Assembly: GCA_951812795.1 (NCBI GenBank)
Contig: OX638325.1
Coordinates: 2,194,277 to 2,258,276, forward strand
Reading direction: 5' to 3'
Origin: an uncultured Dehalococcoidia bacterium
GTDB lineage: Bacteria > Chloroflexota > Dehalococcoidia > Lucifugimonadales > Lucifugimonadaceae
DNA length: 64,000 nucleotides
Positions 8,275 through 10,314 of this stretch are shown here, piece by piece (the stretch's first letter is position 1; each line of letters opens with the position of its first letter). The translations under genes were made by a program, and so were the position numbers. The notes beneath the pieces were generated by a model. The model did not search any database. It was given only the letters and a program-made list of their open reading frames with translations, and was not told the origin of the DNA.

Positions 8275-9081
8275 TCACTCCGCGTTGGGGCCGTGCGATA
8301 GCGAGTCCATTACCGGTACACTGCACGCCTTCATCAAATCGCGCGTGTTCGCCTTAGCAATGGCACGCAACACATGTATGGTGTTACGTCGCACTTGCTT
8401 TTGAACGGCTGAGACAACAATTTGCGAGTTCTCGTCGATCAATCCCCAAAAAGGTGGAAGTTCGGAGCGAGCGATTAAGTTCTGGGGCGCCATTATGTAG
8501 TGGAAATCGGCGCAGGCGAGGAAGGCCGGATCGTGGAATTTGGTTGAAAACCTGGCGATGCTTCGTTGCTTTGCCGCCAGTCGTTTTTCGATCTCTTTGT
8601 CGTCCCGCAACGCGGCGGTATAGGTGGGATGTTCACGCCAGTCCGACCCGTCTTGAACAGATGCGACTGCATGATCTCGCGCATCGTTGAGCACCGTGGC
8701 CGTTAAATTCGCTGCGTCCTGTAGCGCCGAGAGTTGAACCAAAGCCAGTTTTCGGTCCTCGTTGGTCTTGTCATCCCGACGCAGATCGGCCCGCGAAGAC
8801 TTTACCTCAATGATGTAAACCACGTTGTTTTTGCCAATCCCGACGAGATCTACAATCCGGCCGCCTGGTCCTTCCAACTTGACTTCCATCCCAATGGCGC
8901 GACACCCGGCGACCGAGTGTAACCACTGCCACGCAGTCCACTTTAGTTCGTAAGTCAGATCGGTCTCGTTGCGAGATTTCAGAGCGCGTGACGGTACGAT
9001 CTCGCTGTCGATGACATCGGTTGATCGTAATTCTTCCTCTGATTTCGACATTTTCATCGCATTGGACAATTGTCCGAACAT
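8275..9081 (-). CDS. MmcB-like PD-(D/E)XK fold protein
   Basis: About 268 residues. The core from residue 45 shows a restriction-endonuclease-like arrangement: a strand with an Asp (GRIVDLVGI), then YIIEVKSSRADLRRD containing the E-x-K element, as in MmcB DNA-repair proteins. A later strand ADFHYIMAPQNLI also fits MmcB. Catalysis is inferred from the motif only. An insertion of about 80 residues rich in Ala, Asp and Arg lies between the core strands. The start could be the ATG at 9081 or the one at 9057; neither has a clear Shine-Dalgarno sequence. It is divergent from the FtsZ-like gene and convergent with the aminotransferase gene. Confidence 0.6.
   Translation of the reverse strand: MFGQLSNAMKMSKSEEELRSTDVIDSEIVPSRALKSRNETDLTYELKWTAWQWLHSVAGCRAIGMEVKLEGPGGRIVDLVGIGKNNVVYIIEVKSSRADLRRDDKTNEDRKLALVQLSALQDAANLTATVLNDARDHAVASVQDGSDWREHPTYTAALRDDKEIEKRLAAKQRSIARFSTKFHDPAFLACADFHYIMAPQNLIARSELPPFWGLIDENSQIVVSAVQKQVRRNTIHVLRAIAKANTRDLMKACSVPVMDSLSHGPNAE
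9064..9075. promoter_or_regulatory. Perfect 12-bp palindrome at the divergent start
   Basis: GGACAATTGTCC is a perfect palindrome located between, or just inside, the 5-prime ends of the MmcB-like gene and the FtsZ-like gene. If the MmcB-like gene starts at 9057 the site is intergenic and could be a dimeric regulator operator. This is inference from symmetry and position only. Confidence 0.3.
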
Positions 9082-9095
9082 ATTTGCTGTAACGC

Positions 9096-9126
9096 TTGCA
9101 TTTTACTAGAAAACACGTGCTATGAT
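9096..9126 (+). promoter_or_regulatory. Possible sigma70-type promoter of the FtsZ-like gene
   Basis: TTGCAT at 9096-9101 and TATGAT at 9121-9126 resemble -35 and -10 boxes. Their 19-base spacing is slightly long. The -10 box is about 60 bases before the preferred ATG at 9187. No other good candidate was seen upstream of this gene. Confidence 0.35.
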
Positions 9127-9186
9127 AGTAGTTGAACAGAAGTGCTATCCGATATCGAGCCCATCGTAGCGGAATTGGAGACTGAC

Positions 9187-10314
9187 ATGACGATCATACG
9201 AGATGGACGAAATACCAAAGAAGCCAAGGACTTCACGATTGTTGGAGTCGGCGGCGCCGGTGCTAAGTCTGCAACCGAACTCGCCAAGGTGCTGGGAAGC
9301 CCAGATGACGTGATATCTGTCGATCGACAGATGGACAACCTGCTTTCGATCAATGTTGGGCGTCGCGTCGCGATTGGCTATCCAGTGTTCGTCCCGAGTC
9401 AACAAGGCACCTCCGACGACGACCTCGCAGATGTGAGCGATCTGTTCCGTCTGAAGACCGTAATCGGTAAACCACCTATCGTCTTCGTTATGGCTGGTCT
9501 CGGCGGCAATACGACGTTGGAGCTTATGCCATCAGTGATCCGCACCGCCATGTCCACTAGTGCAACAGTGTTGGCAATCGTTACCCAACCATTCGCGTTC
9601 GAAGGTCGCACACGTTCAAACATTGCAGGAATTGCGTTGGACAGAATTCGCGCTACCGGCTGCCCGTTGGCCATCGTAGACGCAGACTCCGCGTTGTCGA
9701 ACGTGGCGATTGCCGGTGATCTCGCTTCAGAGCTATCGGCGGCCAAAGCCCGTGTCGTGATGAACGTTTTGTCGGCCTCCGGGGTGGCAACACTCGGCAC
9801 ACTCAACACCGCACCTGAATTGCTCGACGCCATCAACGGAACCGGGCCAACTTTCATCTCCTACGCTTCCTGCGAAGACGTCGTCGACTACCGGAAAGCG
9901 ACTCGTGAGGCAATCAAGAACCCAATAACCACCGGCCTTGATCTGGGTGAAGCTGATCGCGTAAGTGTCATTGTCGCGGGACCTCGGGACATGTCGATCA
10001 AAGCGTTGAATTCCGCCATCGCGATCATTGAGGCAGAGACTTCAGAGAACGCGGTTTTGTCGACATCCTTCGTGACAAATTCCGACGCAACCAAAGGGAA
10101 CCGAATGAGGATCAGCATCTTGGCTGGCAGCCGGATGGAACAATCAGTCGCCACCGTCGCCGCGAATCAGCATGGAGAAGCCTTAGAGCCGCTCCGTTCT
10201 ACGGATGACGTTGATTCAAGGTCAATCGGCGATGACGTTGACGACCTATTTGGAGCTCCCGATTGGTTGACCGAAAAATCACCTGCGCAGGAACGGGTCC
10301 CGGTACTGCTTTAA
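9187..10314 (+). CDS. Divergent FtsZ/tubulin-like protein lacking catalytic motifs
   Basis: A 375-residue protein that aligns along its length with FtsZ but has lost key residues. Seen: an N-terminal T1-like loop TIVGVGGAGAKS (residues 17-28), a strand VFVMAGLGGNTTLE (99-112) where FtsZ has AGMGGGTGTG, and the well-preserved TVLAIVTQPFAFEGR (127-141), matching FtsZ TVAVVTKPFxFEG. A C-terminal domain with DLGEADRVSVIVAG and a closing RISILAG strand is also present. The T7 synergy loop (NxDFxDV in FtsZ) is not recognisable; the equivalent region reads SGVATLGTL. GTP hydrolysis is therefore unlikely (inference). GGAG six bases before the ATG at 9187 decides the start; a GTG at 9142 is the alternative. 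It could be a cytoskeletal paralogue, a membrane-remodelling protein or a partner of true FtsZ. Confidence 0.7.
   Translation: MTIIRDGRNTKEAKDFTIVGVGGAGAKSATELAKVLGSPDDVISVDRQMDNLLSINVGRRVAIGYPVFVPSQQGTSDDDLADVSDLFRLKTVIGKPPIVFVMAGLGGNTTLELMPSVIRTAMSTSATVLAIVTQPFAFEGRTRSNIAGIALDRIRATGCPLAIVDADSALSNVAIAGDLASELSAAKARVVMNVLSASGVATLGTLNTAPELLDAINGTGPTFISYASCEDVVDYRKATREAIKNPITTGLDLGEADRVSVIVAGPRDMSIKALNSAIAIIEAETSENAVLSTSFVTNSDATKGNRMRISILAGSRMEQSVATVAANQHGEALEPLRSTDDVDSRSIGDDVDDLFGAPDWLTEKSPAQERVPVLL

Follow-up and report, generated by a model that had tools for sequence, protein, structure and literature searches.

A catalytically degenerate FtsZ paralogue with LexA-type promoter boxes in three genera of a SAR202 family

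What use could a bacterium that already encodes two canonical FtsZ proteins have for a third one whose active site is gone? The question is raised by a gene in a stretch of 64,000 nucleotides (the window; contig OX638325.1 of assembly GCA_951812795.1, an uncultured Dehalococcoidia bacterium), which lies 30–40 kb downstream of the two canonical copies; the original prediction had suggested looking for a canonical ftsZ elsewhere in the genome. The gene, ftsZ3, and its elements are as follows, in window coordinates.

9187 to 10314, forward strand: FtsZ3, a catalytically degenerate FtsZ paralogue of 375 aa (sequence, profile, alignment, predicted fold)
9177 to 9180, forward strand: ribosome-binding site GGAG, kept in the genus alignment
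9096 to 9101, forward strand: −35-like TTGCAT, invariant in 7 congeners
9121 to 9126, forward strand: −10-like TATGAT, seen in the sequence and genus-invariant only in its first bases TA
9496 to 9525, forward strand: degenerate T4 segment GLGGNTTLEL (canonical GMGGGTGTGG), from alignment and sequence
9802 to 9831, forward strand: LNTAPELLDA in place of the catalytic T7 loop (canonical INLDFADLRT), from alignment and sequence
10243 to 10311, forward strand: conserved C-terminal tail DLFGAPDWL...RVPVLL, from the genus alignment

A third FtsZ lineage

The reading frame is unbroken over its 375 codons, an in-frame GTG start being present also at 9142, and TTGCAT and TATGAT are separated by a spacer of 19 nt. 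An intact FtsZ-like gene with a ribosome site and promoter-like boxes, as had been claimed, is indeed what the locus contains. The homology of FtsZ3 to FtsZ is far above chance, with E = 8e-13 and 48.3 bits (below the cut-off of 295) for the TIGR00065 ftsZ profile and E = 3e-13 for PDB FtsZ sequences. In Pfam, only FtsZ/tubulin-superfamily models were matched and in NCBIfam only ftsZ, with no match to the SulA family; PADLOC and PHROG searches for phage or anti-phage defence functions gave no match for the FtsZ3 of the window, and FtsZ-like matches on viral contigs were weak, at 23–35% identity.

Structure prediction with AF2 on an alignment of 86 sequences gave a model with pLDDT 79 and pTM 0.75, its core mostly above 90; this alignment was used instead of one of 7 sequences, which alone gave a poor model (pLDDT 48). 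The top Foldseek matches of the model were all FtsZ (best E 2.6e-22, TMt at most 0.83), and the two-domain FtsZ fold, including a full C-terminal domain, is predicted for FtsZ3, not the other Rossmann fold that had been named as a possible refutation. The original prediction recognized an FtsZ-like C-terminal strand; the likeness stood, while its restriction to a single strand did not.

Comparison of the 7 FtsZ3 proteins of the window's genus (g1) with 60 canonical FtsZs revealed how far the active site has changed. T1 (GVGGAG) and T5 (PFAFEGRTR) are kept, and the T1 glycines, Thr108 of T4, and Glu139 and Arg143 of T5 are retained in all seven, which lack the equivalents of D46, G107, G109, T110, G111, N166 and D187; the N25 equivalent is present in just one. 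The canonical base residues N25, N166 and D187 correspond to K, A and K in the FtsZ3 of the window. The T7 signature N-x-D-x-x-D has become LNTAPELLD, one residue shorter and with the first aspartate replaced by T or S, so that NLDFAD reads LNxAPE throughout the genus. The reported absence of GGGTGTG and of the T7 aspartates is thereby confirmed and, since the losses in T4, T7 and the base residues are common to 7/7 genomes of g1, sequencing error is excluded.

In place of the lost residues, the genus conserves motifs of its own, namely LNxAPELLD, GLGGxTTxE, MTIIRxGRN, DLFRLKT and DLFGAPxWL...RxPxLL, and dN/dS for unsaturated pairs within g1 is 0.09–0.15, indicating purifying selection. Because of this combination, FtsZ3 is, as judged from sequence comparison, a remodelled protein under constraint and not one in decay. 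A decaying pseudogene would account for the missing active-site residues but is hardly credible with a reading frame intact in 7/7 genomes, dN/dS of about 0.1 and new invariant motifs (MTIIRxGRN, LNxAPELLD and the tail motif), and is refuted by the selection data.

SAR202 is a marine group that branches deeply within Chloroflexota. In the SAR202 family of the window (76 genomes), FtsZ3 occurs in 7/7 genomes of g1, 18/19 of g8 and 5/7 of g7, the last five including a pair of partial or very degenerate copies; a class-wide sample of 393 genomes yielded no clear FtsZ3 outside these three genera. Clear members score at least 281 bits with the A3 profile, the exceptions being G038 (214–216) and G036 (165–167), and the best canonical FtsZ reaches 208. 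In the tree, 27 FtsZ3 form one side of a branch with support 98/99, for which the program warned of long branches. As identity across genera is only about 20%, orthology rests on the tree, on gene order, on the MmcB-like neighbour described below and on the C-terminal tail. The order methyltransferase, aminotransferase, MmcB-like, FtsZ3, epimerase is common to g1 and g8, and the sister-genus tail [SL]IFDTP...RTRGPVLLPTG corresponds to DLFGAPDWL...RVPVLL of the window. FtsZ3 is thus supported, by sequence comparison, as a third FtsZ lineage, known so far only from three genera of one SAR202 family. Homologues outside this genome, in congeners and sister genera, and monophyly within Chloroflexota were the outcomes sought by the original prediction, and its view of a GTPase-dead paralogue kept under selection agrees with the two canonical FtsZs, the presence in 7/7 congeners, dN/dS near 0.1 and the monophyly.

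The degree of degeneration differs among the genera. T4 is near-canonical in g7 (GGTGSG, GGTGAG); it reads GRGTGSG in most of g8 and GRGMGSV in one degraded subclade, and is degraded also in G035 (GRSGGNAG) and in g1 (GGNTTLE). The N166 and D187 equivalents are retained in g8, from which T7 is missing; in g7 the decay of T7 is stepwise, with DADPGD still present in G038. The tree implies that the nucleotide site was lost independently at least twice, or three times counting G035.

As to the canonical genes, recA, both canonical ftsZ and ftsZ3 all lie inside about 45 kb of the window's genome (G000:C1:2159587-2204587). The two canonical FtsZs of the genus are represented by L001:1417-2556 and L002:1303-2547; the former type ends in REYQRFTEYRR without an IPPFLR peptide, which the latter retains.

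Regulatory context

The regulatory context, which the original prediction overlooked, is the most specific clue to the function of FtsZ3. It consists of a divergent gene and two promoter boxes.

8275 to 9081, reverse strand: MmcB-like (PF06319) putative DNA-repair nuclease, divergent and conserved partner of ftsZ3
9107 to 9122, forward strand: LexA-type box 1, TAGAAAACACGTGCTA, between and overlapping the −35 and −10 elements, with 1 mismatch to TAGMACN4GTKCTA
9132 to 9147, forward strand: LexA-type box 2, TTGAACAGAAGTGCTA, 25 bp downstream of box 1, with 1 mismatch and a PWM score of 15.2

The two genes are separated by 105 bp, and their divergent pairing is the usual arrangement, conserved in g1, g8 and g7. 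The neighbour resembles (PF06319) the nuclease MmcB, which in Caulobacter is under SOS control (PMC9578287). About half of g8 has lost the MmcB-like gene or keeps only a remnant of it; since FtsZ3 and the box are still there, the box serves FtsZ3 in its own right. Next to FtsZ3 in g8 (L096:2960-4174 and other loci) lies a protein that carries an OmpR-type DNA-binding domain at its C-terminus, and such a protein also adjoins the SOS-boxed mmcB in g6 (L168:230-1789).

The motif TAGMAC-N4-GTKCTA is common to the ftsZ3 intergenic regions of all three genera, and 28/28 FtsZ3 promoters examined contain at least one copy. The same motif, unchanged or slightly varied, precedes recA in g8, g7 and g6, lexA in g8, g7, g6 and g2, and also an imuB-like gene; among further recA promoters of g8 it is exact in 8/9 and has one mismatch in 1/9. 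Its presence at recA, lexA and the imuB-like gene of sister genera identifies it as a LexA-type SOS box, although the genomes that share it are kin and not independent. A PWM trained on the recA, lexA and imuB-like sites, with the FtsZ3 sites left out, gave 7.4–23.1 on 27/27 FtsZ3 upstream regions; the 28th promoter, that of G035, has two boxes. No LexA-type box was found in 25 canonical ftsZ upstream regions (PWM at most 4.5), where the control regions of 350 bp, against 250 bp for FtsZ3, favour the control by their extra length. Some FtsZ3 start codons are approximate, which shifts box distances by tens of bases.

In the window itself, box 1 (TAGAAAACACGTGCTA) scores 15.2 with a shuffle p of 0.003, and the site is aligned in 7/7 congeners. 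In the whole genome no more than five sites match with one mismatch or none, and two of them lie in the gap between ftsZ3 and the MmcB-like gene. The boxes are weak in the congeners G005 and G006 (PWM 7.4 and 8.6), the window's genus has a LexA with a strongly divergent DNA-binding domain (32 vs ~60 bits; L131, G000:C1:1532413), and the lexA and recA boxes of this genus have drifted, as in TTACACAAATGTGCGA and TGTTACTCTTGTGCTA. Owing to this drift, we infer LexA control in the window's genus only by descent and from partial boxes, and make the weaker claim here. The divergent domain together with the drifted boxes suggests co-evolution of LexA and its operator. A dedicated non-LexA operator, considered in view of the mismatch between this box and the window's own recA and lexA promoters, was rejected, as the sister genera show a LexA-type box.

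Paired LexA-type boxes 19 bp apart were also observed beside cinA in L158, L163, L166 and L167, and L172 has a single matching box. At most of these loci the boxes precede an ORF of ~250–266 aa followed by a protein of 132–147 aa, that of L158 with an HTH match; the 254–266-aa ORFs tested gave no Pfam match. The cinA-linked locus looks, by its sequence, like another uncharacterised SOS operon.

Proposed role and its alternatives

On balance we regard FtsZ3 as a component of the SOS response, most likely a division inhibitor that acts as decoy or cap during repair. The polymer regulator or FtsZ filament cap suggested in the original prediction would fit this role. In the proposed mechanism, LexA would repress the promoter region common to FtsZ3 and the divergent nuclease, and its inactivation by DNA damage would lead to the production of both. 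FtsZ3 retains the FtsZ fold and the scaffold of the nucleotide face (T1, T5 and the remodelled T4 and H3), with canonical guanine binding presumably impossible and the catalytic T7 loop missing, so that docking on filament ends is expected. Its conserved top face would then bind FtsZ filaments at their ends and stop further growth and hydrolysis, and the Z-ring would be stalled until repair is complete, FtsZ3 and the MmcB-like protein forming a repair-and-pause module. The gene, its fold, its lost residues, the selection on it, its family and its boxes are results of the analysis; that LexA binds the boxes, that damage induces the gene, that FtsZ3 binds FtsZ and that division is arrested is inferred. 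Precedents exist for two of the steps: SulA, which is SOS-induced, blocks division by preventing FtsZ polymerization (PMC13396833), and MciZ caps FtsZ filaments at their ends (PMC8456036).

The pattern of conservation may fit this mechanism. The nucleotide face is better conserved than the T7/H10 face in g1 (0.76 vs 0.67) and g8 (0.65 vs 0.48), compared with 0.62 vs 0.55 in canonical FtsZ, as would suit a non-extendable subunit docked on an FtsZ end. The asymmetry is modest, which counts against the inhibitor reading; it is clearest in g8, H8 is well conserved in g1, and the elements were assigned to faces by the analyst. Repair genes without any division role are also found under SOS boxes. 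More specifically, a duplicate of the cell's own FtsZ might have become a LexA-controlled, GTPase-dead filament-capping decoy, with at least two to three losses of the nucleotide site, and would represent a new class of SOS checkpoint; this fuller scenario is advanced tentatively, as one that could well prove wrong.

Among the alternatives, FtsZ3 might be made upon damage to work with the MmcB-like nuclease or with DNA repair, the FtsZ fold serving as scaffold and FtsZ not being directly affected. The divergent pairing in three genera and the SOS boxes shared with the MmcB-like gene are what such a partner would show, yet FtsZ3 and its box outlast the loss or decay of MmcB in about half of g8 and FtsZ-specific elements of the nucleotide face are still conserved, which makes this reading unlikely. 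Less likely again is a damage-specific subunit that co-assembles into FtsZ filaments and stabilizes or repositions the Z-ring as a positive modulator. The nearly intact T4 of g8 (GRGTGSG) with its N166 and D187 equivalents suggests that GTP may still bind there, a hydrolysis-dead subunit could stabilize polymers, and the conserved tail could recruit partners; the nucleotide site, however, is destroyed in g1 and part of g8, where stable incorporation should weaken, and the SOS division factors known so far are inhibitors. That FtsZ3 has nothing to do with division and is a cytoskeletal or membrane-remodelling protein in its own right is very improbable: roles of this kind were proposed for other FtsZ-like families (PMC2875224), but no vWA or membrane-protein genes neighbour ftsZ3, no transmembrane or coiled-coil extension was seen in FtsZ3 by eye, and LexA-type control would be unexpected. 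The original suggestion of an unstudied cytoskeletal or membrane system found no support.

SOS division inhibitors have so far been discovered case by case, and the coupling of DNA damage to division appears undescribed in Chloroflexota. The graded series, from near-canonical T4 and T7 in g7 through a GTP-site-like but T7-less state in g8 to the fully dead form in g1, offers a natural experiment for telling the parts of FtsZ required for inhibition from those required for polymerization. We know of no SOS division inhibitor that is an FtsZ paralogue, and in the limited set of open papers searched no earlier description of an SOS-controlled one was found.

Comparison with known systems

FtsZl1 and FtsZl2 are, like FtsZ3, FtsZ-like proteins that occur alongside conventional FtsZ. 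They are far more diverged, whereas FtsZ3 retains the FtsZ C-terminal domain, and FtsZl1 is further set apart by coiled-coil C-termini and by vWA operons (PMC2875224). The marks of these families, loss of the C-terminal domain and, for FtsZl1, a vWA operon, were not found for FtsZ3, whose domain is predicted and whose neighbours are MmcB-like and metabolic genes. The FtsZ of Nitrosopumilus maritimus has likewise lost the GTP-binding motif and the T7 loop and is non-polymerising (PMC3684127); it is archaeal, division there being attributed to Cdv and not to FtsZ, and no damage control is known for it.

In terms of the proposed role, SidA, YneA, SosA, ChiZ and DidA are DNA-damage-induced division inhibitors as well, but they are small membrane proteins that act on late divisome steps (PMC13396833). 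MciZ of Bacillus caps the ends of FtsZ filaments (PMC8456036), the mode predicted for FtsZ3, but is a sporulation-controlled peptide of 40 aa that binds H10/S9 of FtsZ. SulA, the SOS division inhibitor of Enterobacteria, provides the SOS-controlled block of FtsZ that is predicted for FtsZ3; it has a different fold, while FtsZ3 is itself an FtsZ homologue. With canonical FtsZ (TIGR00065), FtsZ3 shares the fold, T1, the T5 loop, both domains and common ancestry, and differs in that the canonical proteins have GGGTGTG, the T7 aspartates and the guanine residues, and promoters without LexA-type boxes.
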